NCBI RefSeq assembly: GCF_003086895.1
Contig: NZ_CP026004.1
Coordinates: 434,074-498,073, forward strand
Source: Stenotrophomonas sp. ESTM1D_MKCIP4_1
GTDB lineage: Bacteria; Pseudomonadota; Gammaproteobacteria; Xanthomonadales; Xanthomonadaceae
Direction: 5' to 3'
DNA length: 64,000 nt
Position 1 is the stretch's first letter. Each line of letters begins with the position of its first letter. Of this stretch, positions 37,551 to 53,775 are shown one piece after another. The position numbers were made by a program, and so were the translations under genes. Under the pieces are notes generated by a model, which saw only the letters and a list, made by a program, of their open reading frames with translations, was not told the DNA's origin and ran no database searches.

Positions 37551-38761
37551 GCGCGCTTCTTTTTCGTCGATGCTTCATTCTTGGCGATTTGCGACAGGCC
37601 CGCAATCGCTAGCTGCTCGGCAACACTCGCGGCCACCCTCTGGCCCAGCAGTACTGGAACGGCATTGCCAAGCTGTCGCATGGTTTCAGACCAGCTTCCA
37701 TGGAACTGGAAGCCATCCGGGAAAGTTTGGATTCGAGCACTCTCGCGAATCGTGAAGTACCGAACCGAACCGTCGTCCTTCACCAGCATGTTTTCACCGC
37801 CGGGCACACCGTGACCGCCAGCCTTAAGCGTTTTAGCCGGCAGATCTAGGGGGCTGCCGGTATGGCCGGGGTACGCGCGCGCGCCTGCTTGATAGATATG
37901 GTTGGCGAATTTCTTGGCGTCACGGCTCTCCGGATCGGGCAAGCCTTGTAGAGCATCCCGAACCGTTCGCCACGCTTGGGTCGGCAACATCGTGCGGAAC
38001 TGCTGCAGCTTGGCCACCCGAGCTGCAAGTTTTGGCGGAGTTTTAGGCTGACGTATGCCGTGGCGCTTCCAGTAGACGCCCGTCACCCACTGGTCGTGCA
38101 AGAGTGCGTCGTAGCTGTGAGTCTCAGACGGGAACGACCATTCCACACCCAGATCGTCTCTGAAGCCCACGAGGAAGACGCGTTCGCGCTTCTGGGGGAC
38201 GCCAAAGTTCGCTGCGTTTACCAGCGTAGGAATCACGTTGTACGTGTTGCCCTTACCTTTGCGCTTGCCCGATGTCTTCTCAACCTGGAGGCGCGCCAGA
38301 TGATCGGACCAATCTTCGTCCTTCCGAGGCGGAACGTCAGGGAACTCCAACTGCAACTGAATGTAATAGAAGTAATTCGCAAACTTCGCGCGCGTGAGGC
38401 CTTTGACGTTCTCTACGATGAAAGCCTTGGGCCGCAACTGCCGAATGATGTCCACAGTAGCCGGGAACATGTCACGGCCGTCTTCGTGGGCCTTGTGCTT
38501 GCCGCCAATGGAAAACGGCTGGCAGGGCGGACCGCCTGCCAGTAGCTCGATATCCTGGGGAACCGAGGACCAGTCAAAGGATCGAACGTCACCTTCGTGG
38601 AGTGTCCAGTCTCGGACGAGAGGGTAGTCGCGGCGCTGATTCTCCCGAACGGTATCGCACGCCCATTTATCCCATTCGACCACGGCCAGGTGCTCGAAAC
38701 CGGCAATTTCGCAACCCATGGCCAGACCGCCGGCACCTGCGAAAAGCTCAACCGATCTCAT
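37547..38761 (-). CDS. DNA (cytosine-5) methyltransferase of the restriction-modification locus
   Basis: The 404-residue enzyme has the C5-methyltransferase motifs in order: I (ELFAGAGGLAMG), IV (GGPPCQPFS, catalytic Cys80), VI (VENVKGL), VIII (VPQKRERVFLVG) and X (MRQLGNAVP). A variable target-recognition region of about 150 residues lies between VIII and X. It methylates cytosine within the sequence cut by its partner, presumably CCGCGG. Overlap with the nuclease gene is four bases. The 60-base upstream gap to the XRE gene may hold the promoter. Confidence 0.95.
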   Translation of the reverse strand: MRSVELFAGAGGLAMGCEIAGFEHLAVVEWDKWACDTVRENQRRDYPLVRDWTLHEGDVRSFDWSSVPQDIELLAGGPPCQPFSIGGKHKAHEDGRDMFPATVDIIRQLRPKAFIVENVKGLTRAKFANYFYYIQLQLEFPDVPPRKDEDWSDHLARLQVEKTSGKRKGKGNTYNVIPTLVNAANFGVPQKRERVFLVGFRDDLGVEWSFPSETHSYDALLHDQWVTGVYWKRHGIRQPKTPPKLAARVAKLQQFRTMLPTQAWRTVRDALQGLPDPESRDAKKFANHIYQAGARAYPGHTGSPLDLPAKTLKAGGHGVPGGENMLVKDDGSVRYFTIRESARIQTFPDGFQFHGSWSETMRQLGNAVPVLLGQRVAASVAEQLAIAGLSQIAKNEASTKKKRA

Positions 38762-38821
38762 TCCAGTACTCCAATAAATTCTGATTAGGCAAGCGCTTAG
38801 CTCGCATTGGTATCGACGTGA

Positions 38822-39085
38822 TCAAGCTTCTTCCGAGGCAAAGGCTGAGGCTGCTGGACTCAAAGAGATTTCCATCCCCAACGCAGCAAGCACCGCGATT
38901 AGCTTTCGGCTCCCCAGCTCAGGAAGGTGCCCTCTCTCGAATCGAGAGAGCAGCTCGGCCGTGACGCCGCTCGTTCTAGCAACGTCAATCTGCTTCAGGC
39001 CCAGCTGCTTGCGTCTTGCTGCCACTTGGCAGCCCAGTTCTTGAAGGGTGATCACGTACCGGTGTCCGGCTCCGACATGCCGCAA
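38822..39085 (-). CDS. XRE-family helix-turn-helix protein, possible controller of the R-M locus
   Basis: The 87-residue protein is nearly all a lambda-repressor-like HTH: ARRKQLGLKQIDVARTSGVT as helices 1-3, then AELLSRFERGHL and RKLIAVLAALGMEIS. Size and location 60 bases before the methyltransferase fit a controller (C) protein that delays nuclease expression. The ending LGMEISLSPA also resembles HipB-type antitoxins, but no HipA partner is present. Start is uncertain (ATG at 39085, or the GTG at the VITLQEL segment). It may share a transcript with the methyltransferase. Confidence 0.8.
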   Translation of the reverse strand: MRHVGAGHRYVITLQELGCQVAARRKQLGLKQIDVARTSGVTAELLSRFERGHLPELGSRKLIAVLAALGMEISLSPAASAFASEEA

Positions 39086-39170
39086 TTATTGATCTATACG
39101 TCAAGTGAGGCAAGCAAAATCCAGACGCGTAGCATCCGTTTCCCCTGTCTCAAGAAGTGAGACAAGCAGG

Positions 39171-39941
39171 CTAGATCCAAGAACATTGCGAGCGGTGCCA
39201 GGCGAGGGATTCAGCGCTAGCCACCATGTCTGCAGAGATCGGTGATGTCAGCGCTGAACCGTCCAGATCACCGTAGGTTGATTGGCGCAGTGCCGGCGCG
39301 ACCGCAATCCTCCGAGAGTCAGGATCGACCGCCACCAAGTACAAGTCAAAGAGAGTATGGATGTCCGCACGCAGGAGCAATCCATTGCTCACGGCATTGC
39401 TTGCTTGTCCGAGGTAGGGATGGATGTGAGCCGCCTCCAGCGCGTCAACGACGTCACAGCCGCTCATCGCGCAATGCCCTCCGTACGCCTTTAGAAGGCT
39501 AGTCCGAAATGCTGGTTGGCCGCGACGGCGGACAATGGCAGCTAGAACCCTTTGCCGCTCATCAACGACGTCCGAAGGCGAAAAGCTACCAGAAGCAACG
39601 GCAGACTCGGCCTCCCGCTCCAAGAGATGCCTCGTTGGGCCTGACACCAAGCTGGGAGTGGCAGTCGACTGGGTAAGTAGCCTGGCCAAGATGGCCTCGA
39701 CCCTGGTGCCGACGTTCGCCGCTGGTCGCAATCCGGGAAGCCACTCCTCACCAGCCTGTTCCAGAACGTGGGAAATGTTCTGCATTCGGTACTCCCACGC
39801 CTTAGGCGTACGTCCGTGCAGGGCGGCTAAATCCCTGTACGTGTTTGCCTTCTCAACTCTAGAGCCACTAGCCAGCTGAACTTCCATTCGACGATAGGCC
39901 GCAACGGCGGCCGCGAGCTCGTCCTCTGTCCATTCGTTCAC
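39171..39941 (-). CDS. HNH endonuclease
   Basis: The 256-residue product has a C-terminal HNH domain: Cys157 and Cys162 in GHCAMSGCDVVDALEAAHIH, His172 as the first catalytic His, Asn186 in AVSNGLLLRADIHTLFD, and His195. The N-terminal part (EWTEDELAAAVAAYRRME, then TYRDLAALHGRTPKAWEYRM) is a helical segment often fused to such nucleases. The GTG at 39941 is preceded by a GGGGGG run and starts the conserved N-terminus; longer upstream frames look spurious. It could be a modification-dependent nuclease in the R-M locus or an independent defence gene. Confidence 0.85.
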   Translation of the reverse strand: MNEWTEDELAAAVAAYRRMEVQLASGSRVEKANTYRDLAALHGRTPKAWEYRMQNISHVLEQAGEEWLPGLRPAANVGTRVEAILARLLTQSTATPSLVSGPTRHLLEREAESAVASGSFSPSDVVDERQRVLAAIVRRRGQPAFRTSLLKAYGGHCAMSGCDVVDALEAAHIHPYLGQASNAVSNGLLLRADIHTLFDLYLVAVDPDSRRIAVAPALRQSTYGDLDGSALTSPISADMVASAESLAWHRSQCSWI

Positions 39942-40393
39942 AGCCCAGCCCCCCCATCGGCCGCCCGGCGCGCCGTTCCCAGAGGAGTATGCAATACACG
40001 ACACTAACTGTCGCAAATGGCCTTGTAGGAGCCTCGGACGGCCGTCTAGGCCCAGCGAACGAGATATGCTCCACGCTCCTGGGCCGGCGAGAGCCGGCAG
40101 ATGGTAGCCACCGATGGGCACTTTGTACGAATGCGCTTGGAGTCGACCTCTTCGGCCCTCAAGCAATAACTGGCGACGCTGCAGGGCAGCAGTGCTGCGC
40201 ACACCACGGCCCTGCCACGGGGAAAGAGGCTGGGGCGCGTGTTAGACGAGTGCTCTATTCCCGACAGATAAGCCGAGACGCAGGCGGACGCGGTTGCAGG
40301 GCGAACGTTGCATGAGGTTCATCTATCAACCTGCAATGCGACACATGGGCAATCATCTTGATCAGGGCGGCGCACCTATGGTGAGCCGAAGCC
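39942..40393. other. 452-base gap without a supported gene
   Basis: No frame has both a ribosome site and plausible composition. A CCTGGGC...GCCCAG-type pairing around 40050-40085 is the only structure I noted, and it is weak. Confidence 0.5.
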
Positions 40394-41185
40394 TCAGCGC
40401 CCTACTTCATACCGCTGCATAGCCATGCCCACCGCCCCCTCCAGCCGCTTCCAATCCACCAGCATCACCCGCGCATAGTGCATCTCCACCGCGATCCCTC
40501 GTTCCACATCCACCCAGGAATGCCGGCACATCGCAATGCGGTCCCCATTTGAACGCACCAGCGTCCACCGTTCCATCAGCAACCCATCCGGCATGTACTC
40601 GGAAGGGTCGCAACTGATGAACGTCATCACCCGCCCATCCCCGGCGCGCGCCACATACCAATCGGGTTCCAACTCCCGCCCCGCACCAGCCCCCCGCGAC
40701 CGATCAACCGCATACGGCGTCAGCCCCAGACGAGGCACCATCGCTACACGCTCAGCCAGGCTCTGCGCCGAGCCGCGTCCGATGTGCTGCGCCAGATAAT
40801 CCGCAGTTCGCGCATGCCCCAGGTACCGGAGCTCAACTGAAACCTGTCGGTACCCATCCTCCTCTGTGCGAAGAGGGTAATCGCCCGGAGGCGCCGCATC
40901 GAAATCGGGCCACATCAATGTCAACACCACCACCCCGCCGGTAAGCGCGGCGATCTGGTTGTAGTAAAGATTGGCCGGAAACGCGAATCGGTGGCGGCCT
41001 ACACTGGCCTCGACCGGCTCCACCGTGTATGTACGGCCTTCCACCATGCGCGTGGTGGTGCGGCCCTTCAACACGGGGTTGAGGTCTTCATCGTTGCCCT
41101 TGAACGGTGCCCGCGTGCAGGCGGTGGCGGCCAGTACGGCCGCCATCGCAACGCAGGCGTACCGATGAAGCGGCGCGCTGCTCAT
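40394..41185 (-). CDS. lipoprotein of unknown function
   Basis: The 263-residue product has a lipoprotein signal with lipobox ATAC (Cys near residue 23). The mature part contains a short hydrophobic stretch (IAALTGGVVVLTLMW), a RYLGHARTADYLAQHIG segment, and a tail VSWVDVERGIAVEMHYAR-like beta region. I do not recognise a family; the size and single lipid anchor resemble periplasmic immunity lipoproteins of secreted toxins, but no toxin gene is adjacent. It lies 63 bases after the 123-residue protein gene on the same strand, so they may be co-transcribed. Confidence 0.7.
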   Translation of the reverse strand: MSSAPLHRYACVAMAAVLAATACTRAPFKGNDEDLNPVLKGRTTTRMVEGRTYTVEPVEASVGRHRFAFPANLYYNQIAALTGGVVVLTLMWPDFDAAPPGDYPLRTEEDGYRQVSVELRYLGHARTADYLAQHIGRGSAQSLAERVAMVPRLGLTPYAVDRSRGAGAGRELEPDWYVARAGDGRVMTFISCDPSEYMPDGLLMERWTLVRSNGDRIAMCRHSWVDVERGIAVEMHYARVMLVDWKRLEGAVGMAMQRYEVGR

Positions 41186-41248
41186 CCGAATATCCTCGCT
41201 GGACCGAAGAGACGCGGCGGGCCAAGAGCCCGCAATGGAATGCAGGCC

Positions 41249-41620
41249 TTACGACTGCCCCTGCACCCGCTCACTCGCCATCAACGTCAGCGACAACACC
41301 GCCTGCAGCAGCCCCTCCATCTGCCGCTCGCCCAGGTATTCCTGCGGGCCGCTATTCTGCCGCGTGCGCTCGCAGGCCAGGGCCATTTCCGCCACCGATC
41401 GCAGGCCGACGAGCGCGCAATCGGCGTCGGCCAACTGCAGGCGGCGGCCGGGGCGAAGGTTGCGATCGGGCCAGGGTTGCCCATTGGAGGCCGCGCCCGC
41501 GCCAATGCGTTTCAGCGTGGCGACAAACCCGTTGGGATCGGGCGTGTACTCTTCATCATCGCGATCGGTATTGGCCGAATCATGCTGGATCTTCAAACCG
41601 GGGAGTTTCGTTGCGCTCAT
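41249..41620 (-). CDS. small acidic protein with helical C-terminus, unknown
   Basis: The 123-residue product starts with a disordered acidic N-terminus (DSANTDRDDEEYTPDPNG) and ends with two helices (CALVGLRSVAEMALACERTR and RQMEGLLQAVLSLTLMASER). This shape recalls short DUF3077/DUF6124-type proteins common in Pseudomonas, but the match is by impression only. The start at 41620 follows a hairpin-rich leader. Its function is unknown. Confidence 0.65.
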   Translation of the reverse strand: MSATKLPGLKIQHDSANTDRDDEEYTPDPNGFVATLKRIGAGAASNGQPWPDRNLRPGRRLQLADADCALVGLRSVAEMALACERTRQNSGPQEYLGERQMEGLLQAVLSLTLMASERVQGQS

Positions 41621-41639
41621 GGCAGTGCTCCGTGCAGGA

Positions 41640-41860
41640 AAACAGCAGAGCCACCCATAAGGGTGGCGGACGATGCGTGGATCGAAAACCGGTCAGTAGC
41701 CAATCCGGCGGGCCCGAAGACCCCCACGCACCGCCCGCCATATAAGAACGCGAACGGAAGATCAGCCGACGCCACCCGAAGGTGACGCCGGCTGACCAGC
41801 GCTAACACACCGGCTACTGAACGGGTTTTCGACGCCCGCGCCACCCATGTCAGGTGGCAT
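41640..41860 (-). ncRNA. hairpin-rich leader with a three-way-junction fold, candidate regulatory RNA
   Basis: On the minus strand a long stem pairs 41812-41835 (TCGAAAACC and TCAGTAGCC blocks) with 41675-41701 (GGCTACTGA and GGTTTTCGA blocks). It encloses two hairpins: 41763-41794 with a TTCG loop, and 41707-41739 with GGCGGGC/GCCCGCC arms. Flanking hairpins CCACCC/GGGTGG occur on both sides (41651-41667 and 41840-41858). The structure ends just before the small gene at 41620. An open frame also crosses it, but dyad symmetry explains the conservation better. Confidence 0.55.
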
Positions 41861-42108
41861 GCCCAGATGTACTCGCACCAAAGCGAGATGCCAAGAAACC
41901 GTAGCCCTGCGAGGCTGCAAGTGTTGACGCTTACGGCATTGTTGCACGCGCGGCGCAGCGCGAATGCTTTGCGGTGCAATGGTTTCGGCCGTTGTTAAGC
42001 TGCGCCGCTGTTGCACCTGCAAATGCACCGTTTACAAGGAATTGCAGATCCAAAAACGACAGCACGTTGAGAGCCCCTCCGGCGGTATCGGGTCGATTGC
42101 GACACTGG

Positions 42109-42324
42109 TTAGCTATGCAGCGCCAACCCCGGCATCGGCCAGAGGAATGGCGTGCGGGGCAGGTCGTAGTCGTTGCCGAAAGCCATCGCCGCCTCGTGCG
42201 GTTCCAGATCTGCGTAGCAGTTGAGCAGGTACTCATCCATGCCCGCATCGCGGCGGTCCACGGCAAAGAGGCCCAGCAGGGCCTCGTCAAAGTCTTCCAG
42301 CCACTCAGCGTCGATCTTGGTCAT
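42109..42324 (-). CDS. 71-residue acidic protein, left member of a flanking paralogue pair
   Basis: The product (MTKIDAEWLEDFDEALLGLF...) is acidic and soluble. It aligns along its whole length with the gene at 48718: both have DAGMDE, LL, YADLxPxxAAxAFGxDYDL and LWPxPG blocks. AGGAGG six bases upstream favours the ATG at 42324; an ATG at 42330 lies too close to it. I do not recognise the family. It is divergent from the three-gene operon, which suggests a regulatory or accessory relation. Confidence 0.75.
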   Translation of the reverse strand: MTKIDAEWLEDFDEALLGLFAVDRRDAGMDEYLLNCYADLEPHEAAMAFGNDYDLPRTPFLWPMPGLALHS

Positions 42325-42609
42325 GGCCATCCTCCTGGGGGCCGGGGATGATGACGCTCGGGTGTCTCACGGGATGGGACGGCGAGCAGCTCCGCCATGG
42401 GTACGATCCCGGCCAATCTCAGGACATGAAATCGACACCTTGTACGCTCGCGCTGCAGAGAACGCGCCAGTCCACCGGGCCGAATTCAAACGCAACATTG
42501 CTCAAGAATTCCCATGACGGGCCGATCACGTGCTGCACCCATACGCATGGCGTGTGGGGCGTTCCATTCCATTGCTTACGTACCCACCACAACATCTGAA
42601 GGAACCTGC

Positions 42610-43920
42610 ATGACAGGAAGTCAGTGGGGCCTGCTGGCCCCGGAAACGCTGCCCGGCACCCGCCGTACACGCACACTGGGTCTGGGCCGTTCCGTACGAC
42701 AGTTCAACGAACTGGCGGTTCCGGGCCTGGGTGGGGTTCAGTACGCCAAGCAGGTGCTGTTTGTGGCGCTGAGCATGGCGGTGGCCAAGCGAGTCGAGAA
42801 CCCGGGCGTCCAGGTCACTCATATCGAGGTCGCCAACGCGATCGAAGCCGTGGCCTGCATCATCGGCTACGACGATACGAACTGGGAGTCGAGCATCCGC
42901 ATGCGTGGGCGCAACAAGCTGCCTCGCCGTGGTCCGGCGCCCGAGTACCGGGTGGCCTGCAAGCGCAGCTTCCATGTGTCCCAGCCCATGCGCATGTCTA
43001 CGGCACAGGCCCTTCCCTCGTTGGGGCTGGTTGATACCCAGAGCGCGCGCTTCAACGCTTTCGAGTGCAATGACAACCTCGACGCGTTTGTCTCCAACTG
43101 TCTCGGCAATCTGATGGCCGGCAATACGACCGTGCTCAAGCATCTCAGCAGCTGGGTGGAAGGCAAGCAGCTGAAGTGGGGAAGTGCAGGGCTGATCGAA
43201 GCGCTGCACCCGCTGCGGCCGCTGCGGTCCCCGGCGCGTGCCTGGTTGAAGAATGCCTTGCTGCAGGGCACTGCACTCAGCCCGGAACTGCGCGAACGCC
43301 GCCAGCGGGCCTGGCAATGGGTTGCGCGCTTGCACAGTGAACCGGCGACTGTCGAGTCGCTGGATCAGCCATCGCCGCCGAAAGAACTGGATCCGCAGCA
43401 TTGGCATGATCTGCGCGCTGGCGCGCAGCTGGTGGTTGTGCGGGATGCGGCCATTGCGGTGTTGGACGCAGTGGAACGCGTGATTGAAGCCCGCAAGAGT
43501 CGCTCGCTGCCGCTGTCGGAGCAGCTGCCGGAGCCTGTGCGGGCTGCGCTGGCCGCGTTAGCCGGCCACGCTGAGGCCTTCCTGGCGTTGAAGCATCACG
43601 ACGCGGAGGCCAACCGCTTCTGCGCCGAGTGCGTCTCCGGCGACGCCGAAGCGCTGCGTCACCTGCTGCTGCGTGATGACCAGGTGCTGCGCCTGGTGGA
43701 TGGCTGTGCACGTCCGGGTGCGGCCTATACCGGGCAGCCACCGACGGCAGCGGTGGTCGCAGAAGATGACGGCGACCAGGAAGACACGCTGGGGGCTGCT
43801 GGGGAGCCGATACCTGTGGGCATTTCCTACCGCATCCGGAATCTGTATCGATTGCAGCGGGACCTTGAGGACGCTTCGCAGGATGTAGCTGGCCATGCCA
43901 CCGAGGAGGCTGTCGCATGA
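42610..43920 (+). CDS. unknown protein, first gene of the helicase/PLD operon
   Basis: I do not recognise this 436-residue protein. It has no membrane segment or signal. The N-terminal third contains GLGRSVRQFNELAVPGLGGV and MAVAKRVENPGVQVTHIEVANAIEAVAC, which look like a globular alpha/beta domain. The middle carries RGRNKLPRRGPAPEYRVACK, and the C-terminal third is helical and acidic. AAGGAA precedes the ATG at 42610. The stop overlaps the next start (ATGA). Being first in the operon, it may be the sensing or specificity subunit, but that is inference. Confidence 0.8.
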   Translation: MTGSQWGLLAPETLPGTRRTRTLGLGRSVRQFNELAVPGLGGVQYAKQVLFVALSMAVAKRVENPGVQVTHIEVANAIEAVACIIGYDDTNWESSIRMRGRNKLPRRGPAPEYRVACKRSFHVSQPMRMSTAQALPSLGLVDTQSARFNAFECNDNLDAFVSNCLGNLMAGNTTVLKHLSSWVEGKQLKWGSAGLIEALHPLRPLRSPARAWLKNALLQGTALSPELRERRQRAWQWVARLHSEPATVESLDQPSPPKELDPQHWHDLRAGAQLVVVRDAAIAVLDAVERVIEARKSRSLPLSEQLPEPVRAALAALAGHAEAFLALKHHDAEANRFCAECVSGDAEALRHLLLRDDQVLRLVDGCARPGAAYTGQPPTAAVVAEDDGDQEDTLGAAGEPIPVGISYRIRNLYRLQRDLEDASQDVAGHATEEAVA

Positions 43921-45938
43921 GCAGCGGAAACTACACGCCTCAATCACTTGTGTCCCATTTCAGCCCGCCGAAGGGCTATGTGGGTACGTTCGGTTGGATC
44001 AGCGGTTTCTCCGCGGATTTCCGCTTCCTCAACGAAGCGGGTGACCGCTTCACCGGGCTGGGCAGCCTGCAGCGCATGCAGATGGGCGAGGTGCGCCTTG
44101 CACTGATGCTGGACCCACACCAGCCCGCATTGTTGCCAACATCGGTTCCCGGCTTGGCGCATCTGCCGCTGCGAGACCCGGGCCAGAAGCCGTTCCGCTT
44201 GATGCACGCCAAGGTAGCCGTGCTTGGCTTCCGCCACGAGCAGGATGCCGCCCGCTGGTGCGTTCGATTGGTGGTGAGCACCGGCAACTGGACCCGGCAG
44301 ACCGTAGAGGACAGCCTTGATCTGGCCTGTGACCTGCAGGTGTTCAGCGAAACGCTTGGGCAGGCGGACTGCGCGCAGGAACGCGTGGACATCAAGGCCG
44401 CAACGCAGTTCCTCGCGGCACTGCGTGCCCTGTATGACACCCGCCTGCTTGATGCGGGCATACCGCTGACCGGCGGCGATGCCGCTGTGGAGCTGGACGA
44501 GTGGCTGCGGGCCTGCGGGAAGAAGGTCAACAACCCGCAGGGACTGTTGCCAAGATTCATCGACAGCCGCACCCGCCCGTTACTTACAGAGATTCTGGAC
44601 GCCGTGGGCGCGCGCCAGCGTAAGCCCAGCGGCTACCTGGCGATGGGCTCGGGCTTCTACGAGGGCAGCGCCAACGGAACGAGTGATGGAAATGCGCGAC
44701 CGGTAGTTCCGGTGAAGGTCGTAAGCAGGCTGAAACAGGCCCATCTGCTGAAGGAGCGCGGCAAGGTCGAGCTGTACGTGGAACCGACAGCCTGCCAGTC
44801 CATCGCCGCTGCCGTGTACTATCTGGGCCAGCACCCGGACCACGCCATTGCCGTGCATGCCGCTGTGCCGAATGTTGCTCTGTACGGCGAGAGAAGCGCG
44901 CGGACGCTGCATGCGAAGTTCATCTTCGCTGCCAACCGGAGCGAGCAGACCGGTGCCTGCAACAATGCCTGGCTCTATATGGGCTCGGGCAATTTCACCG
45001 ACGCGGGCATGCTGCAGAAGATGTCGGCGGGGGGCGGCAACCTGGAAGCCGGCATGGTGCTGTTCCCCGACGATCTGTACTGGCGGGGCAATTCCAAGGA
45101 CCCTGCGCTGCTGTCCAATCGCTTGCCGGTGGGTGGGCCCCTGTTGGACGCTGATGCGCCAGGGCTTTCTGCCGGTGAGCCTTGGCAGCCGCCGACCGGC
45201 CAGAACGACGCGGCACCGTTGGCGTTCCTCCATTGGCGGGAGGAGGGCATCCTGGCGCCTTCAGCAAAGGGTGAAGATGCGCAACCGTTGCCGGACGGCG
45301 TTGATGTACTGGACGAATCGGGCGAGGCCTGTGCACACGTTGCGGGCGGCTATGCCTGGCCTGGAACGGCGCCCCGCATGGTGCGGCTGCGCTGGCAGCG
45401 CGATGGTGAGCAACGTGAAGCGTGGGTGCCGGTGATCGACGCGTTTGGTCGTGTGGCGGCAACGCCGCTGGGCGTCATGGAGCTTGCTGATGTAGAGCAG
45501 CAGCTGATGTCTTTCCCGGGCGTGCCTGAACCGGAAGGCGATGTCTCCGAGTATGAGGATAACGAGGATGGGCCGGGTGGCCCTCCGGGAAGCACCCGTG
45601 CCGCCCAGCGGGCTGTGTCACAGGGTGCCGCCATCCGGCAGATGATGGGCATGGTGGAACGCATCGCATCGCGTCAGGTGGACATTGCGGCTACCGACTG
45701 GGCGAGGTGGTGCGTGCGTTTGGAACAGACCTTGTGCCAGGCCCAGGAGAGCGAGGCGGTCAACGCGTTCGTCGCGATGGGGATCAACCCGCTGTCGCCC
45801 CTGCGTGCGGCGCCGTTCCGGCCCCCATATGCGGAAGACGGCACCGTGGAGCCGGGTATGCGCTATGAGGCCATGCTGGACCGCGTGGAGCAGGCATGGA
45901 GAACCCAGGGATTGGCAGCAGTGGAGGGCGTGGCATGA
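43917..45938 (+). CDS. Tdp1/phospholipase D-superfamily protein, second gene of the operon
   Basis: The 673-residue protein has two H-x-K...N catalytic half-sites: His97, Lys99 and Asn124 (LMHAKVAVLG and STGNWT), and His332, Lys334 and Asn359 (TLHAKFIF and GSGNFT). The H-to-N distance is 27 residues in both. Replacement of the usual Asp by Asn after the histidine and lysine is typical of Tdp1-type phosphodiesterases, which act on DNA ends or protein-DNA adducts. An acidic linker (VSEYEDNEDGPGG) separates a C-terminal helical region of about 110 residues. Both junctions in the operon are ATGA overlaps. It is the likely nuclease or end-processing subunit. Confidence 0.85.
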   Translation: MSSGNYTPQSLVSHFSPPKGYVGTFGWISGFSADFRFLNEAGDRFTGLGSLQRMQMGEVRLALMLDPHQPALLPTSVPGLAHLPLRDPGQKPFRLMHAKVAVLGFRHEQDAARWCVRLVVSTGNWTRQTVEDSLDLACDLQVFSETLGQADCAQERVDIKAATQFLAALRALYDTRLLDAGIPLTGGDAAVELDEWLRACGKKVNNPQGLLPRFIDSRTRPLLTEILDAVGARQRKPSGYLAMGSGFYEGSANGTSDGNARPVVPVKVVSRLKQAHLLKERGKVELYVEPTACQSIAAAVYYLGQHPDHAIAVHAAVPNVALYGERSARTLHAKFIFAANRSEQTGACNNAWLYMGSGNFTDAGMLQKMSAGGGNLEAGMVLFPDDLYWRGNSKDPALLSNRLPVGGPLLDADAPGLSAGEPWQPPTGQNDAAPLAFLHWREEGILAPSAKGEDAQPLPDGVDVLDESGEACAHVAGGYAWPGTAPRMVRLRWQRDGEQREAWVPVIDAFGRVAATPLGVMELADVEQQLMSFPGVPEPEGDVSEYEDNEDGPGGPPGSTRAAQRAVSQGAAIRQMMGMVERIASRQVDIAATDWARWCVRLEQTLCQAQESEAVNAFVAMGINPLSPLRAAPFRPPYAEDGTVEPGMRYEAMLDRVEQAWRTQGLAAVEGVA

Positions 45939-48559
45939 CGCTGGCGTTGGACTGGACTGAGGTGGCCGCGCAGGCCAGGGCGCTGCTGGGCAGCCCGCTG
46001 GTGGAGGCAGAGGCGGGACTGCAGTTGAACCAGGGGCAGCGTGACAGCCTGCTGGCGCTGTGCGAGCGGCTATCGCGCAATGGCGTGATCCTGGCCGACG
46101 AAGTTGGCATGGGAAAGACGCGCATAGCAGTGGCATTGGCGCTCTGCGCAACACGTGCGGGCGGCCGGGTGGCCATCGTTGCGCCCCCGGGCCTGGGCGG
46201 ACAGTGGCAGCGCGAGCTGCTGCGTGCGAAGCTGCAGACGCCCGAACTGCTACGCACGCACGCGCAGTACCTGCGGGCATGGTCGCAGGATGCGCCGTCC
46301 AAGCCATGGTTCGATGAGCCCATCGTGCTGCTGTCGCATGGTTTCAACCGCTGGGCATCGGGGCCTCTTCCTGACTGGCGCTGGTCACTTCTGCCGGAAG
46401 TACTAGCCCAGTACCAGCGGGACGTGCTGGGCGAACGCCTGCCCTCCGGCTACAACGTCAGCGACACGCTTGATGATCCGGAAACCCATGCGGCGGGTGC
46501 CTCCATCGCCGGCTACATCGGGCGCCTGCCGAAGCGTTCGCTGGGGCGGACAACGCTCGATGCAATCAGGGAGTCGATTCCCGTGTGGAAGCGTTCGGCC
46601 GAGGCGGAGCAGTACCACGCACGCGGCGCGCTGCGCCCTCAACTGGACCGCGTCACTGGGCTGGGGCTGGGTGTGTTCGATCTGGTCATCATCGATGAGG
46701 CGCATAAGAGCCGCGGCGACGACAGCCTGTTGAGCACGCTGTTGAACGATGTGCTGGTAGAGAATGCAGGCGCTCGACGCGTTGCCATGAGCGCAACACC
46801 GGTTGAGCTGGATGCTGGGCAATGGCAGCAGAGTCTGCGCCGCATTCACGTTCACCAGGCAACGCTGCCTGCCACGATCGACGCGTATGTAAAGGGCGTG
46901 GAGGACCTGCGCCGATCACCGTGCGACGCACAGGTGGAAGCTGCCTATGTGGCGGCAGCCGCGCGCTACAAGGACGCACTGGACCCGTATCTACTGCGGC
47001 GTGACAAGCGGGAGGACGACGCCGTGCGCCGGTTCGTTGCGCAGACGGGGCTGCCTACCAACGGCTATCGCGATGTGGATACGCTGCCGGTGCGGTTGCA
47101 GTCGATGACAACGGGCTGGCGGCAGGCTGTGTGTGCCGCTGAGGCGCTTTCGTTCGTCAGCCGTATGAGCGAGGACAGCGCTGGAAAACGCCAACGGTTG
47201 ACGATGGGTAACGGCCACGGCATCGCACGTTTGATCGACGAGACGCTGGATACGGAGCATCAGCAGCAGGGTGGCGCGGCTGATGCTGCGGCTGATACGG
47301 GCAAAGACAAGCGGACGCAGCGGGCCGGCTGGTGGAAGGCTGCAATGGGGCGGGTGATTCGCTCTGAACACCCGGACGAGGACGTGCTGTATCGGCACCC
47401 TGCAATCACCGAAGCAATCACATTCATCGAGACCATGGCCTCGGATGAGAAGGTGCTGGTGTTCGCACGCTATCGTGACCCGATGCAGGCGCTGACCCGG
47501 CTGCTCAATGCACGCGCGATGCTGCGCGCGGTGAAGCAGGGCCATCCGTGGCCGCAACGCGTGGTACAGGAGGATGAAGCGGCTGCGGTGCGCGTGGCGC
47601 ACCGGCAGTTGTACGGGCAGGAGGTGGATCTGGTTGCCCTGGACGAGGCGCTGCGGGACGGCTATCGCGAGCTGGAGAACAGCCGCCAGCGCTTCCGCAA
47701 TGGGCTGCTGGCGAAACTGCGCGACGGCATTGCGCAGCTGGAGGGCAGGCAGCGCACCCGCTATGGTGAGTTGCTGGCGGTTCTGCAGGCGTCGGCGACG
47801 ACCGCCCACGACGGAACCACCGGAGGGTTGGCGATCGTCGCGCGCGCGCTGTCCGACCACTTGGGCGAGGCCGCTGAATCGGGCACGCCATCGGAGATTA
47901 CGGCCAGTCTGATGGAGCTGGTGCAGGCAGCGGCCAATCTGGATACCGCGACCGATGATGCCGACGACGCAATAGTAGAAGACGATGTGCACGTGGGTGC
48001 GCAGCAGTCACATGAGTGGGAGGCGGTACTGGCGCGGCTGGACAGCGACTACTCGCATGCCGGTGGGCGCTTCGCACGCCAGCTGCACGGCGGCATGGAA
48101 CCAAGTACCCGCCGACTGCTGCAGCTTGCCTTCAACCGGCCCCATGCCTTCCCACGCGTTCTGGTGGCCCAGTCCATGGTCGGCCGTGAAGGCCTGAACC
48201 TGCACGAGGCATGCCGAACCGTCGTTCTGCTGCATCTGGAATGGAATCCGGCGGTGGTGGAGCAGCAGATCGGCCGTGTGGACCGGCTTGGCAGTCTCTG
48301 GCAGCAACGTCTGCAGGCTGCGGTGGAGGATGCGACGTTCCAGGCGGAAGTGCCGAGAATCCAAGTGCGCCAAGTGGTGTTCGAGGGCACCTATGACGAG
48401 GGTCACTGGCGTGTACTGGCACAGCGCTGGGACCAGCTGCGTGCACAGTTGCACGGCGACATCCTGCCTCGGTCCGCGGAACCGGATGCAGAGTATCTGG
48501 CGCTGACCGAGCGGGTGGCGCTTGCTGCGCCCAGGTTCTCCCCGACGGTGGTGGACTGA
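45935..48559 (+). CDS. SF2 helicase, SNF2/RapA-like, third gene of the operon
   Basis: The 874-residue protein has SF2 motifs: Q-like LNQGQRDSLLAL, Walker A ADEVGMGKT (GMGKT at 58-62), DEAH at 254-257 (IIDEAHKS), motif III SAT at 286-288, then in the second RecA lobe VLVFARYRD, GREGLNLHEA and motif VI QQIGRVDRLGS (777-787). VGMGKT and VDRLGS are typical of SNF2/RapA-type translocases. A long insertion (about residues 380-640) lies between the lobes. It probably moves along DNA or remodels protein-DNA complexes. The start at 45935 overlaps the PLD stop by four bases. Confidence 0.92.
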   Translation: MTLALDWTEVAAQARALLGSPLVEAEAGLQLNQGQRDSLLALCERLSRNGVILADEVGMGKTRIAVALALCATRAGGRVAIVAPPGLGGQWQRELLRAKLQTPELLRTHAQYLRAWSQDAPSKPWFDEPIVLLSHGFNRWASGPLPDWRWSLLPEVLAQYQRDVLGERLPSGYNVSDTLDDPETHAAGASIAGYIGRLPKRSLGRTTLDAIRESIPVWKRSAEAEQYHARGALRPQLDRVTGLGLGVFDLVIIDEAHKSRGDDSLLSTLLNDVLVENAGARRVAMSATPVELDAGQWQQSLRRIHVHQATLPATIDAYVKGVEDLRRSPCDAQVEAAYVAAAARYKDALDPYLLRRDKREDDAVRRFVAQTGLPTNGYRDVDTLPVRLQSMTTGWRQAVCAAEALSFVSRMSEDSAGKRQRLTMGNGHGIARLIDETLDTEHQQQGGAADAAADTGKDKRTQRAGWWKAAMGRVIRSEHPDEDVLYRHPAITEAITFIETMASDEKVLVFARYRDPMQALTRLLNARAMLRAVKQGHPWPQRVVQEDEAAAVRVAHRQLYGQEVDLVALDEALRDGYRELENSRQRFRNGLLAKLRDGIAQLEGRQRTRYGELLAVLQASATTAHDGTTGGLAIVARALSDHLGEAAESGTPSEITASLMELVQAAANLDTATDDADDAIVEDDVHVGAQQSHEWEAVLARLDSDYSHAGGRFARQLHGGMEPSTRRLLQLAFNRPHAFPRVLVAQSMVGREGLNLHEACRTVVLLHLEWNPAVVEQQIGRVDRLGSLWQQRLQAAVEDATFQAEVPRIQVRQVVFEGTYDEGHWRVLAQRWDQLRAQLHGDILPRSAEPDAEYLALTERVALAAPRFSPTVVD

Positions 48560-48717
48560 GGGCGTGCTACGCATTTCAGGCAGATGGCCCGCAATGAGCT
48601 CGAAATGGAGATGAGCGACCTGCGCTTGCTGGCTGCGAATGATCCAACGTCCTGGTGGCTCGTTGTGTTGTAGGTGTTCAGCAAAGCGTTGCGAGGACAG
48701 CCTCGAACGCCTTTCGC

Positions 48718-48933
48718 TTAGCCGCGCGACGTGATTCCCGGTCGCGGCCATAGCGCATCGTCGCGTTCCAGATCGTAGTCACTCCCAAAGGCCAGCGCCG
48801 CATCGCGCGGCGCCAGGTCTGCATACAGGCGCAGCAACTGCTCATCCATGCCTGCATCGCAGTGGTCGATACCGAACAGGTAGCGCAGTTCAGAGTCGAA
48901 GGCGTGCAGCCAGGTGGGATCTATCGGGGTCAT
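48718..48933 (-). CDS. 71-residue acidic protein, right member of the paralogue pair
   Basis: Paralogue of the gene at 42109, with the same length and orientation (MTPIDPTWLHAFDSELRYLF, then DAGMDEQLLRLYADLAPRDA, AFGSDYDL and LWPRPG). The upstream DNA is also similar (CCCA...TGAGACA..CCCC, then GAGG and ATGGCCATG), so the duplicated unit includes the promoter side. The start at 48933 is chosen by analogy with 42324. It converges on the helicase gene. Confidence 0.75.
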   Translation of the reverse strand: MTPIDPTWLHAFDSELRYLFGIDHCDAGMDEQLLRLYADLAPRDAALAFGSDYDLERDDALWPRPGITSRG

Positions 48934-49116
48934 GGCCATCCTCATGCAAGGGCAGGGGAGGATGGCCTGGGGATGTCTCATGGGCTGGGATGCGCAGCGC
49001 CCCTGCTGGAACGGACGCACGGAGCGAGCGGATATCGAGCAAGGAGAGCACAAGGCTGATGTAGCGCAGTGGCACAACGGCAAGGAGTGGCACTACGAGA
49101 ATCAAGCCGTGTAGTG

Positions 49117-50235
49117 TCAGGTGCCCGGTGTAATGGGAGCAGAAGATGCACCGGTGGACTTGGTCGCGGGGGCGCATGACACGAACCTCGACACGCGGTC
49201 AGTCGGAACGGTTGAAATATCCTCTGACTCGCCCTTCACTCGCACGTAGTACATGGATGACGTCGCCGCGCGCATGCTCAGCTTTTTAGTGATTTGGCTG
49301 CCTCTGTTGTTCCAATCAATCAAATCGGAAAAATCGGCCTTATCGCCTGTGACCACCAACCGCAGGCATTCCATGCCACCTGATGCGCTGCTGGAGATCG
49401 CTCGCCCCGCCAACCAGCCACCGCTTGCAGGGAAGATGCAGATTGCCGAGATTACGACCAAGCTTGCATGGAAAGCCCTGGCGATGATCTTCCCTTCGTT
49501 GCTTCCCAATTCGATAAGCGCAACAAGAATGATCTGGACTGCCGCCATCGCTGTCACCGAGGCGAGTAGAACAGCAAATATAAAGAGGTAGCTCTCAGAG
49601 TCGGAGAACGGGGCGATCGCCCGTTTCATGACGGCAAGTGACAGTAACATCTGAACGAAATTAGATGCGGTTGAATACCAAATTCGATCAATCCAATGGC
49701 GATTCTTGTTGTTCTTCCCAAATAGGAAAGAACCCAAGGTAAAAACCGCCCCGGCCATCAAAATGGCCACAGGCATTCCCCATCGGTCGTGCCCAGGCAG
49801 GCGAGCCATCAGCACGATCGCAACAGCAAGTATGGCTCCCGGAAGGGTCAGCGTAACGAGCCAGCGAAGGATGTTGGGGACGCTGTAGCTCGGCCGCCTA
49901 AGTACGCGAAGGGTGCCGTCTCCCTCTGCGACAGCCTCTTCCAGCATTGCCACCAATGGCATAAGGGCCAGGGCAAACAACGCCAGAGTGATGCCGCAGA
50001 TCATAACCAGCAGCGACGGCAGCCCGGAGATGACATCCGACGAAAGTATGCTGAGCGGAATGTGCTCGGCATGCAGGTAGTACGACAAGCTGAGGCTCGG
50101 CAGCGCAATGGATGCCGCAGCGAGCTTCACCGGATGCCTCTCCGCCCACGTGAATGCCTCCGCAAGCTGTTGAGCCCAAAGTGGTGGAACGACGGCTGTA
50201 GTGGGACTGGACGCCTGCTGAGTTTCGTCTGTCAT
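49117..50235 (-). CDS. polytopic membrane protein, unknown function
   Basis: The 372-residue protein has about seven hydrophobic segments (for example ISGLPSLLVMICGITLALFA, VTLTLPGAILAVAIVLMARL, MAGAVFTLGSFLFG and VLLASVTAMAAVQIILVALI) and a soluble C-terminal domain of about 90 residues with CLRLVVTGDKADFSDLIDW and a low-complexity Ser/Ala/Thr end. I do not recognise a family. GAAGGGAAG precedes the ATG at 50235. It diverges from the PAAR toxin gene; a link to the toxin, such as protection, is possible but not shown. Confidence 0.75.
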   Translation of the reverse strand: MTDETQQASSPTTAVVPPLWAQQLAEAFTWAERHPVKLAAASIALPSLSLSYYLHAEHIPLSILSSDVISGLPSLLVMICGITLALFALALMPLVAMLEEAVAEGDGTLRVLRRPSYSVPNILRWLVTLTLPGAILAVAIVLMARLPGHDRWGMPVAILMAGAVFTLGSFLFGKNNKNRHWIDRIWYSTASNFVQMLLSLAVMKRAIAPFSDSESYLFIFAVLLASVTAMAAVQIILVALIELGSNEGKIIARAFHASLVVISAICIFPASGGWLAGRAISSSASGGMECLRLVVTGDKADFSDLIDWNNRGSQITKKLSMRAATSSMYYVRVKGESEDISTVPTDRVSRFVSCAPATKSTGASSAPITPGT

Positions 50236-50564
50236 GGTGCTTCCCTTCGTGCAAGGACCGAGTGTTGCCGACGCACTTAAGCGTATGGCGGCATGAACAA
50301 GATCGGCCGATTGCGAGAAATCGTTAGCGATAGGCCTACGCGTACGGTGCGGTGCGCCGGGCAACCGGCGGTTATCCGTCCTTCCAGGCGCGTCGCACTG
50401 TCGCAAACGGCTCGCCTCGGAACTCGCGCAGGGATGCTTTCTGTGGTGCCAAGCACGCATTTCCTCCGCATGCTTTAGGACTAATCGCAAAAGCAAACCC
50501 ATAGCGATTCCGCGCAATCACCGCTCTCTAGCCTCCTTCTTCAGCAGCACGCGAAGGAGAGCAG
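50236..50564. promoter_or_regulatory. 329-base divergent promoter region
   Basis: It separates the membrane protein gene and the PAAR toxin gene. No small gene is convincing. I see no clear operator, apart from CGAT...ATCG pairings near 50310-50326. GAAGGAG lies just before the toxin ATG. Confidence 0.45.
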
Positions 50565-52418
50565 ATGCAGCGGATGGTAATCGTCGTCGGCGACCGCACC
50601 ACCGGGGGCGGCGAGGTGCTGACCGGTGCGCCCAGCACGTTCATCAACGATATTCCCATCGCCCGCGTGGGCGACAAGGCCAGTTGCCCGAAGCACGGTG
50701 GCTTCTTCGCCATCGTTACTGGCGATGACACCTTCCTGATTGATGGCAAGCCGCTGGCGCGCGAAGGCGATTCGCTGGCGTGCGGGTGCCGGCTGATGGC
50801 CACGCGGCAGACCACGGTGTCCGTGCAGGCGGGCGGCGGTGGGGCACCACAGGCGGCCGCACCAACGGCGGCCAACGCAGTGCCGCCTGCCGGGTTCGTG
50901 CCCACCGGCACCGCTCCGCGCGCGCCTGATGCAGAACCGCCGCGCAGGCAGGACATCCTGCTGCACTACCACTACGGCGATCTCGACCGCACGCCCGTAC
51001 GCGGCGTGGGCTACCGGGTGATGCTGCCCGACGATCAGGTGGTGACTGGCCAATTGGACGATGCAGGCCGCGCCCGCATCCCGCAGGTCATCGTGGGCCC
51101 GCTGCAGACGGTGCAGGTGCTGTTCCAGCCCGATGCCAGCGAAGACGACGACGCGCCCATCCTCGCGGCGCGTGCGCGGCTGCAGGCAGCCCTCGATGCG
51201 ATCGTGGCGAGAACCCGCACCGACATGGCGCCGGAGTGGCAGCAATGGAATGCGGCGGGGCCAGTGAAGCGCTGGGGCCTGCAGCGCGGCAACCAGGCGC
51301 TGGGCACAGGACAGGGCGCGTGGGATTACGTGGTGGGCACGGTGGAGACCGTGGTGGATCTGGCCGTGCTGATGTACACGACCGACCGCGAGATAAAGGA
51401 ATGGACGCGGCTGCTGGTGACCGGTGACCGCGAAGGGCTGGACCGGAAGATCGCCGCGATGCGCGCGGCGGGCGGCAAGGTTATGGAGGCCGCCAGCGAA
51501 GCCAAGGCGCTGTTCAACCTGCTGATTGAAGACCCGGCCATTACCCGGCAACTGCCCGCGTTTGCCCTGGCGTGGTGGGATGCCGTGCCGCCGGACGAGC
51601 AGGAGCGCCTGCAGGCGCGCTTCGGCGCGCAGATCATGCTGGATGTGGTGGTGTCCATTCTGCTGGCCGCGGTGACGGTGGAACTGGGCGGTGCCGGTGG
51701 GTTTGGCTACGCGGCCGCCAAGGCCGGGCGCACCGCCACACGCATCGGCTCGCGCCTGCTGCACCTGATGGAAGAGGTGGAAGACGCCTTCCAGGACCTG
51801 GCCAAGGCGCTACGGCACCGCAAGCGCCGGCAGGCCGATGGCAACCGGACGCCGGATGGCAACAGGACGGTGGAAACCATCCGGCTGCCCAAGCGCATGC
51901 CGCGCAAGACGCTACCGTGCTTCAGCCCACAGAAGCTGCCGGCATCCAAGTACCCGGAGATGGACCGGCAGTTGAAGGGGCAGGAGCAGGGGCTGAATGA
52001 TATGAGTGTGGAGGATTACCTTGCTGCGCGGAAGGCGTTTGATCCACGGAATCGAGACAGGAGGGCCGCAGCGAGGGCGAGAAACGATTTCAAGAAGAAG
52101 CTCGAAGCTGAAAAAGCCAGAGAACTGGCGCCTTCGGTTGGGTCGATCGAAGAGGCGAGACGACTGGCTAAAGACTACGCCAATGAAACGATGAAGACGT
52201 TGAACGCGTTGCACAATCCCGACCTTGTTGCAGGTGGCGATGACACCATTGCTGATTTCGGAGATGGCGAGGTGAACCAGACTATCGGGCGGCAATGGAG
52301 ACACGCTAAGAAGGGCCAGACCACCCGTATCGAGGATCTGGATGCGGCAGCCAGGCGGGTACCTGCGAGCGAGCGTCATACGACGAAAATGAATGGTGGA
52401 CTGGAGCGATGCAGATGA
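50565..52418 (+). CDS. PAAR-domain type VI secretion toxin with C-terminal Ntox15 DNase (Tde1-like)
   Basis: The 617-residue protein has an N-terminal PAAR domain (about residues 1-85, GAPSTFINDIPIARVGDKAS through DGKPLAREGDSLACGC) that sharpens the VgrG spike. A proline/alanine linker and a helical middle (about 215-410) with a hydrophobic segment (MLDVVVSILLAAVTVELGG) follow. The C-terminal toxin domain starts near residue 448 and has the HxxD motif of Ntox15 DNases, His550-Asp553 in HNPDLVAGGDD. Agrobacterium Tde1 is the known model. GAAGGAG precedes the ATG. The stop overlaps the first immunity gene. Confidence 0.9.
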   Translation: MQRMVIVVGDRTTGGGEVLTGAPSTFINDIPIARVGDKASCPKHGGFFAIVTGDDTFLIDGKPLAREGDSLACGCRLMATRQTTVSVQAGGGGAPQAAAPTAANAVPPAGFVPTGTAPRAPDAEPPRRQDILLHYHYGDLDRTPVRGVGYRVMLPDDQVVTGQLDDAGRARIPQVIVGPLQTVQVLFQPDASEDDDAPILAARARLQAALDAIVARTRTDMAPEWQQWNAAGPVKRWGLQRGNQALGTGQGAWDYVVGTVETVVDLAVLMYTTDREIKEWTRLLVTGDREGLDRKIAAMRAAGGKVMEAASEAKALFNLLIEDPAITRQLPAFALAWWDAVPPDEQERLQARFGAQIMLDVVVSILLAAVTVELGGAGGFGYAAAKAGRTATRIGSRLLHLMEEVEDAFQDLAKALRHRKRRQADGNRTPDGNRTVETIRLPKRMPRKTLPCFSPQKLPASKYPEMDRQLKGQEQGLNDMSVEDYLAARKAFDPRNRDRRAAARARNDFKKKLEAEKARELAPSVGSIEEARRLAKDYANETMKTLNALHNPDLVAGGDDTIADFGDGEVNQTIGRQWRHAKKGQTTRIEDLDAAARRVPASERHTTKMNGGLERCR

Positions 52419-53089
52419 TGGATGAGGAATTCGACTACTTCTACACGCATAGCGGATTTGGGCCAGCAGTTGATTCCCGGCCCGTGGCTCAATCGACGCT
52501 TGATCACTATGAGGGAAAGGTGCCCAGCAAACTGCTGAAGTACTGGCAGGCGTATGGCTTCTCGGGCTATGGAGGTGGCCTGTTCTGGATGACTAACCCA
52601 GATGAGTATGCCGAGGCACTCAAGGCTTGGCTGCACGGCACTGAGCTTCATGGCAGAGATAACTACTACGTTATTGGTCGATCCGCATTCGGCGATTTGA
52701 GTGTTTGGGGGACAAGAACCGGGACCAGCCTGACGGTGAATTGCCCTTGGGCGATGATCTTTCCAACTGATCAGTCACGCTGGATGAGTGAGGGCAAAGA
52801 GGACTTTCTGGTCTCTACGTGGCTTGCTTTCATGGATAAAAGTGACATTGACGAGACGGACGACAGAGACATCCCCCTCTTCGACCGCGCCGTGAAACGG
52901 CTCGGCCCGCTCGCCCATGACGAGATGTACGGCTTCGTTCCCGCACTCGCCTTGGGTGGACCGTGCCGCTTGGATCACCTGCAGAGGGTCAAGGCCGCCG
53001 AGCACCTCCTGTTCCTGGCACAGCTTGGAGAGCGGAGGGTGATGGTGGATATCGTCAAAGAAGTGAAGGCGCGCGGGCTGTGGGAGTAG
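52415..53089 (+). CDS. GAD-like/DUF1851 immunity protein, copy 1
   Basis: The 224-residue protein has an N-terminal GAD-like part (FDYFYTHSGFGPAVDSRP, then KLLKYWQAYGFSGYGGGLFW) and a C-terminal DUF1851 part (YGFVPALALGGPCRLDHLQR). Tdi1, the immunity protein of Tde1, has this same domain pair, so it should bind and block the Ntox15 domain in the cytoplasm. The ATG at 52415 overlaps the toxin stop in an ATGA junction and has GGAG eight bases upstream; an ATG at 52409 is less well placed. Confidence 0.9.
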   Translation: MMDEEFDYFYTHSGFGPAVDSRPVAQSTLDHYEGKVPSKLLKYWQAYGFSGYGGGLFWMTNPDEYAEALKAWLHGTELHGRDNYYVIGRSAFGDLSVWGTRTGTSLTVNCPWAMIFPTDQSRWMSEGKEDFLVSTWLAFMDKSDIDETDDRDIPLFDRAVKRLGPLAHDEMYGFVPALALGGPCRLDHLQRVKAAEHLLFLAQLGERRVMVDIVKEVKARGLWE

Positions 53090-53094
53090 TAGGC

Positions 53095-53775
53095 GTGAGA
53101 ATAGTTGATGAGGATTTCGAGTACTTCTACGCGGACAAGGGCTTTGGCCCTGCCATTGACGCCCGGCCCGTGCCTCCATCAAGGCTTAAGCATTACCGAG
53201 GAAAGGTGCCCAACAAGCTGCTGGACTACTGGCAGGCGTACGGCTTCGCAGGCTATGGCGGGGGACGATTCTGGATGACCGACCCGGACGAGTACACCGA
53301 GGCCCTCAGTGCATGGCTGTACGGGACCGAGTTCGATGGCAAAGATCACTACTCCGTCATCGGCCGCACCGCATTCGGTGATTTGACCCTTTGGGGCACG
53401 AAGAGGGGGCGGAGCCTGACCATCAATTGCCCATGGGCAATGATTTTTCCCTCGGACAAATCTCGATGGATGAATGAAGGGAAGGGAGATCACCTGATAT
53501 CAATGTGGCTTGCTTTTATGAAGCTGGACGGCGTCGATCAGACAGACGACAACGGCATCCCTCTCTTCAACCGTGCCGTGACGCTGCTCGGCACGCTCGC
53601 CCACGACGAGATGTACGGCTTCGTTCCTGCACTCGCGCTGGGCGGACCGTGCCGCTTGGATCACCTGCAGAAGGTCAAGGCCGCCGAGCACCTCCTGTTC
53701 CTGGCACAGCTTGGCGAGCGCAGGGTGATGGTGGACATCGTGAAGGAGGTAAAGGCGCGCGGACTGTGGGAGTAA
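53095..53775 (+). CDS. GAD-like/DUF1851 immunity protein, copy 2
   Basis: The 226-residue product is a tandem paralogue of the previous protein. The last 50 or so residues (from LAHDEMYGFVPALALGGPCR on) are almost identical, while the N-terminal half has diverged (for example KLLDYWQAYGFAGYGGGRFW). The GTG at 53095 is five bases after the first copy's stop and has GGGAG upstream. The two copies may cover related toxin variants, or the second may be an orphan gained with another toxin tip. Confidence 0.88.
   Translation: MRIVDEDFEYFYADKGFGPAIDARPVPPSRLKHYRGKVPNKLLDYWQAYGFAGYGGGRFWMTDPDEYTEALSAWLYGTEFDGKDHYSVIGRTAFGDLTLWGTKRGRSLTINCPWAMIFPSDKSRWMNEGKGDHLISMWLAFMKLDGVDQTDDNGIPLFNRAVTLLGTLAHDEMYGFVPALALGGPCRLDHLQKVKAAEHLLFLAQLGERRVMVDIVKEVKARGLWE

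Follow-up and report, generated by a model that had tools for sequence, protein, structure and literature searches.

A helicase combined with a phospholipase D (PLD) superfamily enzyme is an idea common to DISARM, Dpd, the PLD-SNF2 fusions, the BREX-related type 2 systems, the Zac models of PADLOC and the locus described here. DISARM class 1, for instance, is composed of the SNF2 helicase DrmD, a core of DrmA, DrmB and DrmC, and DrmMI. According to an excerpt of PMC12839542, the effector of BREX-related type 2 is an HKD-endoDNase with a Swi2/Snf2 helicase, and the system carries in addition an N6-methyltransferase together with DUF3780-type and other core genes. Here we describe an operon of three genes that follows the same idea. 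It lies in a window of 64,000 nucleotides (the whole stretch of DNA analysed; contig NZ_CP026004.1, positions 434,074 to 498,073) from Stenotrophomonas sp. ESTM1D_MKCIP4_1, on a single 4.48 Mb chromosome; its closest named proteins likewise come from Stenotrophomonas. We suggest, with moderate confidence and from sequence comparison, that this trio is one accessory DNA-processing system whose most likely role is defence against invading DNA. Its open reading frames (ORFs), in window coordinates, are the following.

42610..43920, + strand: ORF1, 436 amino acids, unnamed family
43917..45938, + strand: ORF2, 673 amino acids, predicted PLD-superfamily phosphodiesterase of the Tdp1-like kind (residues 3-422), followed by a beta and a helical C-terminal part
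45935..48559, + strand: ORF3, 874 amino acids from the ATGA start (887 if begun at 45896), SNF2/RapA-type ATPase, presumed DNA translocase

The trio is a real module. Scanning the genome collection with an ORF1 profile yielded 92 confirmed loci, and we examined 85 loci in all: the best 80 of these, the window locus and four plasmid loci, with genes taken as mechanical open frames. This set includes near-duplicates (L005/L089/L090; L023 and L047, from one Ideonella; L048 and L063, from one Zoogloea metagenome-assembled genome, MAG), and many of the loci are MAG contigs, which may carry a mistaken taxon label. An earlier note on this DNA, made from the letters alone, had proposed looking for the same gene order in other genomes; ORF1, ORF2 and the helicase are complete and in order in 74 of the 85 loci. 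Nine of the 11 incomplete loci meet a contig end less than 2 kb beyond the last gene found. On the Paracoccus versutus plasmid pBEN (L004, 8974-11988), ORF1 and ORF2 form a single frame of 1004 amino acids that is matched by both profiles, a fusion from which direct contact between the two proteins would be predicted. L037 holds a short ORF2, with no helicase found. Pairwise identities correlate among the three proteins at 0.90, 0.88 and 0.93 over the 74 complete loci, related pairs among them not being independent. ORF1 occurs in 7 of 72,556 plasmid records, four of which are among the loci examined; an ORF3 relative at E<=1e-40 is present on five plasmids, all within these seven.

The earlier note had described three genes read in one direction with ATGA overlaps at both junctions, the first gene unrecognised, the second with two equally spaced H-x-K...N half-sites of the Tdp1 or PLD superfamily, and the third with a full set of superfamily 2 (SF2)/SNF2 motifs and a large insertion. 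Each of these points was borne out. The ORF1/ORF2 junction is an ATGA overlap, and the ORF2/ORF3 junction is one too if ORF3 starts at 45935, upstream of which lies a GGAGG. The start at 45896 comes from the mechanical listing, which takes the first start codon after a stop. The -43 overlap of ORF2 and ORF3 in many loci is an artefact of that choice, and the -4 start is likelier; a start codon stands at the -4 position in 59 of the 74 complete loci. ORF1 has an alternative in-frame start at 42514, and we favour 42610 because most listed homologues are 422-450 amino acids long.

ORF2 is modelled with a PLD-superfamily fold and carries complete Tdp1-like half-sites, from which its activity is predicted. 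The half-sites are H97/K99/N124 and H332/K334/N359, with a K-to-N spacing of 25 in both; the first is conserved in all 74 complete loci and the second in 72. HxK...N half-sites that lack the D of HKD are the Tdp1 pattern. Tdp1 also ranks first for residues 3-422 in both fold comparisons, at about 11% identity, although one phospholipase D tied with it in VIA and PLD3 and NucT have the same fold. ORF2 differs from Tdp1 in its additional C-terminal beta and helical parts. PF06087, the Pfam test for Tdp1, does not match the ORF2 of the window, and the only Pfam match of this protein is a sub-threshold one to PLDc_2. In a Pantoea relative (L003) PF06087 scores 21.3 bits against a cut-off of 22, and among the 120 proteins listed it is found on one (P0169) and PF13091 on two.

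The motor protein ORF3 possesses SF2 motifs I, II, III, V and VI, in the form of DEVGMGKT, DEAH, SATP, REGLN and QQIGRVDR (numbering of the 887-residue form). The Walker A lysine (K74) is present in 74 of 74 loci and the DEAH aspartate in 73, the remaining one being a gap. The large insertion is real, since SATP (299-302) and motif V (764) lie about 460 residues apart. ORF3 scores above the Pfam cut-offs for Helicase_C, ResIII and SNF2-rel_dom, and RapA leads its matches among solved structures. Its nearest relatives are PDC-M27C, DrmD, DpdE and RapA-type helicases, and its best NCBIfam matches (DrmD, DpdE, a PLD anti-phage protein and RapA) all lie far below their cut-offs. ORF3 is presumed to be a DNA translocase.

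ORF1 has at least 239 homologues in a large protein set. Searches with hidden Markov models and structures, as the earlier note had proposed for the 436-residue protein, named no family and gave weak fold similarity only. Pfam yields no match at E<=1, and NCBIfam, PHROGs and PADLOC yield none at E<=0.1. The predicted model (pLDDT, the predicted local distance difference test, of 86.8) is mostly helical and without a match at E<=0.001 in the Foldseek PDB and viral libraries, while the sequence retrieved from the PDB only weak myosin and designed-helix rows. Weak rows to MukF, FokI, PaqCI and N.BspD6I in VIA are no more than a hint of a FokI-type recognition fold, families outside that list being possible as well, and the modelled fold is perhaps winged-helix-like. 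Our guess is that ORF1 serves as a DNA-binding or adaptor subunit.

The trio is accessory and mobile, and its distribution is sporadic. Of 91 Stenotrophomonas genomes four carry ORF1, counting this one, and strong ORF1 and ORF2 matches fall in the same two of 398 Pseudomonadota genomes of an even sample, one of them again this genome. The broad core-genome distribution without island association that the earlier note had named as speaking against its hypothesis is thus not what we find. We dropped as chance an ORF1 match in G592 (E 1.1e-4), which has no ORF2 or ORF3 within 19 kb, and we also dropped a weak ORF2 match in G239, which has no ORF1 within 3.4 kb. By their sizes, the genes around the G592 match suggest an efflux set. 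Locus labels span Pseudomonadota, Myxococcota, Thermodesulfobacteriota, Planctomycetota, Acidobacteriota and Nitrospirota, several of them from MAGs, and the Nitrospirota locus ends before the helicase. Near-identical ORF2 in a Haematobacter plasmid (L005), Rhodopseudomonas (L089) and a Hyphomicrobiaceae MAG (L090) points to recent transfer. ORF1 was not confirmed in the viral contigs searched, ORF2 was not found in the phages searched, and a near DNA match of the operon was not found in E. coli.

We grouped the neighbours of the trio into partner families by single-linkage BLAST clustering, which left the AAA cluster mixed. The commonest clusters in the 85 loci are WYL proteins (26 loci), AAA ATPases (24), a UvrD helicase (8), PD-(D/E)XK proteins (7) and DUF2779/Cas4-like proteins (6). 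Thirteen of the 26 WYL genes stand directly upstream on the same strand, and in five Pantoea, Rahnella and Erwinia loci WYL and ORF1 overlap by 4 bases. Among the 52 loci with at least 5 kb of upstream and 3 kb of downstream sequence, 29 have none of these partners, 17 have AAA, 17 have WYL and 16 have both. The PD-(D/E)XK and UvrD pair, for which 'AddAB-like' is our own label, and the DUF2779/Cas4-like gene form tight operons with the trio in some loci. In L005 and L089, for instance, overlaps of 4 and 1 bases join the PD-(D/E)XK, UvrD and ORF1 genes. Of three UvrD proteins scanned, two carry PDDEXK_1. None of these partner families adjoins the trio in the window. The core is therefore the trio, and the partner genes are options.

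Around the trio in other genomes, many models of defence genes are matched. Clusters of pglZ and brxL occur in four loci, and both L005 (Haematobacter) and L089 (Rhodopseudomonas) adjoin BREX pglZ/brxL together with the PD-(D/E)XK/UvrD pair. The earlier note had also proposed a check of enrichment in defence islands. We compared 94 neighbour genes, taken from 47 of the 84 non-window loci (the first eligible ones by id) and with the five clustered partner families left out, to PADLOC at E<=1e-25. They matched 86 families, each matched by one gene, since the member-ordered list starts at 1; among the 25 families listed are BrxL, DrmMI, type IIG, type I and II methyltransferases, reverse-transcriptase systems, two PDC candidates and mad3. 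As a control we took 85 genes in 19 stretches, at preset positions, of genomes of the genus; these matched four families, namely three RtcR-type models and mad3. We use this contrast as support and not as a rate, because the control comes from one genus and the models overlap. In three Pantoea and Erwinia loci (L066, L074 and L078), dynamin-family, YjcZ-like and patatin genes, identified in L066, or their relatives lie downstream of the trio; they are perhaps a separate defence set.

In the window, the operon lies in a variable interval downstream of aceE. The features of this interval are listed below.

34061..57555, no strand: variable interval holding the operon, between aceE and a conserved beta-propeller gene, with scattered alignment in 10 Stenotrophomonas genomes
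34182-36067, + strand: FRG-domain gene adjoining a GmrSD_N gene; local G+C content 46-49%, against 60-65% for most of the window
36080-38761, - strand: C5 methylase, PADLOC type II restriction endonuclease and Eco29kI-like GIY-YIG frame, a tight and partly overlapping group
39171-40202, - strand: HNH_2 endonuclease, its N-terminal part matching PADLOC PDC-S36
42109..42324, - strand: left flanking small gene, 71 amino acids, paralogous to the right one and lying close to the shared block's edge
48718..48933, - strand: right flanking small gene, 71 amino acids, paralogue of the left one
50565-53089, + strand: PAAR-Ntox15 effector-like gene, then a GAD-like/Tdi1 immunity gene

We sought aceE in 11 chosen Stenotrophomonas genomes and compared the stretch downstream of it in 10. 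The interval aligns only as scattered pieces in those 10 genomes, in seven of which the right-hand marker (about 57.56-58.84 kb) falls inside the compared stretch. Block 42412-48562 is shared with G066 at 90% identity. The two 71-residue flanking genes are 72% identical in DNA over 224 columns, and DNA like the right one is present in 51 of 91 genus genomes at E<=0.001, some of the matches being short. Because of the variable interval, the block shared with G066 and the flanking paralogues, the operon looks like a cassette in a hotspot. PMC11680222, on Stenotrophomonas defence islands, makes no mention of aceE or pyruvate dehydrogenase.

The earlier note had placed the operon in an island with restriction and toxin genes, and this picture holds: within about 9 kb are the FRG and GmrSD_N genes, a type II restriction-modification (R-M) set, the HNH gene, and the PAAR-Ntox15 toxin with its immunity gene. 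The R-M group offers two candidate nucleases for one methylase. The FRG/GmrSD_N stretch is likely a recent arrival because its G+C content is far below that of most of the window, and the two genes are a possible second defence pair. The HNH_2 gene also has a distant match (49 bits against 180) to a phosphorothioate-DNA restriction family.

From what the sequences and models display (a three-gene unit, its sporadic distribution, the ORF2 fold and half-sites, and intact motor motifs in ORF3), we infer every step beyond 'motor' and 'phosphodiesterase fold' in the following scheme. ORF3 would bind duplex DNA and translocate along it using ATP, ORF1 would help to select or hold the target DNA, and the motor would bring ORF2 to ends, nicks or adducts. 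There ORF2 would hydrolyse a phosphodiester or end-adduct bond through a covalent phosphohistidine, so that foreign DNA is degraded or blocked. Because the unit contains no methyltransferase, self and non-self would be told apart by the state of the DNA and not by a sequence mark; the state sensed could be free or protein-linked ends, or stalled or unusual structures. The Tdp1-like active site, together with the nuclease-helicase and Cas4-like partners, points at DNA ends or adducts. In some other bacteria the AddAB-like UvrD/PD-(D/E)XK pair or a Cas4-like nuclease joins the operon, and the AAA and WYL pairs may contribute regulation or sensing. The suggestion of the earlier note that this is a new defence or DNA end-processing system finds support as a hypothesis in the lack of a catalogued match, the non-core distribution, the fold and motifs of ORF2 that uphold the Tdp1/PLD assignment, the PADLOC-rich neighbours and these partners.

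The chief rival to defence is accessory repair of protein-DNA adducts, in which the SNF2 motor would displace or expose a topoisomerase, integrase or relaxase that has become trapped, leaving the Tdp1-like enzyme to remove tyrosine from the DNA end. The top rank of Tdp1 in both fold comparisons, its pattern of half-sites in ORF2 and the occurrence of nuclease-helicase partners all agree with such a role. Eukaryotic SNF2 proteins have also been reported, in the abstracts of PMC6614809 and PMC10699776, to act on topoisomerase adducts. A fold is, however, no proof of substrate, given that a phospholipase D, PLD3 and NucT have the same one. Defence is also the better fit for a rare, sporadic distribution, a hotspot site and neighbours of the BREX, R-M and reverse-transcriptase kinds. 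Because the trio is sporadic and island-bound, we prefer defence and regard adduct repair as unlikely. An immune system of the Tdp1 type would bring ends and adducts into defence itself: invading DNA would be recognised by its ends or by covalently joined proteins (candidates are a relaxase, an integrase, a terminal protein or a trapped topoisomerase) and not by a sequence or methyl mark, the SNF2 motor would load on the DNA and drive the enzyme into the adduct or end, and AddAB-like or Cas4-like resection would be optional. No example of a described immune system built on a Tdp1-type enzyme was found in the literature searched, and the tie with a phospholipase D in VIA lowers the probability of this reading, which we consider quite unlikely. 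Least probable of all, in our view, is a mobile-element maintenance or regulatory module that gathers in islands and has no defence role. Plasmid occurrence, the variable interval and the WYL regulators of the 26 loci would fit it, but no gene of the trio is a recombinase or replication gene by sequence, and the catalytic residues are kept in nearly all copies.

Another reading, which we judge quite unlikely, is that the trio descends from an already described helicase-plus-PLD defence (DISARM class 1, Dpd, the PADLOC 'Zac' models or the PLD-SNF2 fusions) and has diverged, with components lost or replaced. The nearest relatives of ORF3, listed above, speak for such descent, as do matches of ORF2 to ZacB (weak, E 6.9e-8) and of ORF3 to ZacC (E 5.7e-14, 629-906 of 1019) and marginal matches of DrmC (0.055, L003, Pantoea) and PbeC (0.026, L006) in the ORF2 of relatives. 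Against it, ORF1 matches no model in the libraries searched, those for DISARM included, and ORF3 remains far below the curated cut-offs: 78.9 bits against 610 for DrmD, 65.6 against 500 for DpdE, and 62.3 against 1100, in the helicase part only, for the single PLD-SNF2 anti-phage protein (NF042964). The ORF2 of the window has no DrmC match at E<=0.1. The ZacB match is also short: it spans roughly 50 residues about the second half-site, and its best stretch is 293-330 of 586 model positions. We do not favour a Zac identity. The ZacB model gave matches in 22 of 143 genomes, counting this one, and in 5 of 14 control genomes. All 26 ZacB matches listed fall within positions 234-396 of 586, the region that aligns with the second half-site of ORF2, which is consistent with a signal common to the PLD superfamily, although some of them may be real Zac loci. 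No paper with PADLOC and Zac was found in the open-access literature searched. The earlier note had further stated that neither a DUF1998 protein nor a DISARM methyltransferase is present, and our results agree. The genome's only match to PF09369, which we take to be DUF1998, is in an 847-residue frame outside the window (G000:C1:129314-129457), about 347 kb away from the operon. The trio itself has no methyltransferase, the nearest among the genes scanned being the C5 methylase at 37547-38761, on the other strand and within the R-M set.

No catalogued system in the libraries searched matches all three proteins, an outcome that the earlier note had said would decide against novelty had it been otherwise. 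Nor is the trio described in the open-access literature searched, a scope outside which most subscription journals lie, or in the available parts of PMC12839542, PMC12458937, PMC7641849, PMC5704561, PMC11680222 and PMC9252829. At 6 kb it can be cloned and tested at once, and should it sense DNA ends or adducts, the trio would reveal how a motor-nuclease system free of a methyltransferase spares its own chromosome.

Set beside the known systems, the trio resembles DISARM class 1 in pairing a RapA/DrmD-type SNF2 ATPase with a PLD-superfamily protein, and differs from it in having no DrmA, DrmB or methyltransferase. The PLD-SNF2 anti-phage proteins (NF042964; PADLOC PLD_Helicase and C3a139 'HKD+Snf2') likewise unite a PLD-superfamily nuclease and an SNF2 motor, but do so in one protein, whereas the trio has separate motor and phosphodiesterase genes plus a third protein; ORF2 does not match these models, nor do its half-sites contain the D of HKD. 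BREX-related type 2, compared by the partial description in PMC12839542, is alike in its effector pair, and its N6-methyltransferase and core genes are absent from the trio. The Zac models share weak, partial PLD and helicase domain matches, while ORF1 matches no PADLOC model. The trio is thus a compact, conserved three-protein addition to the helicase-plus-phosphodiesterase class, with one component outside every family searched, ORF1, and another that resembles Tdp1, ORF2.

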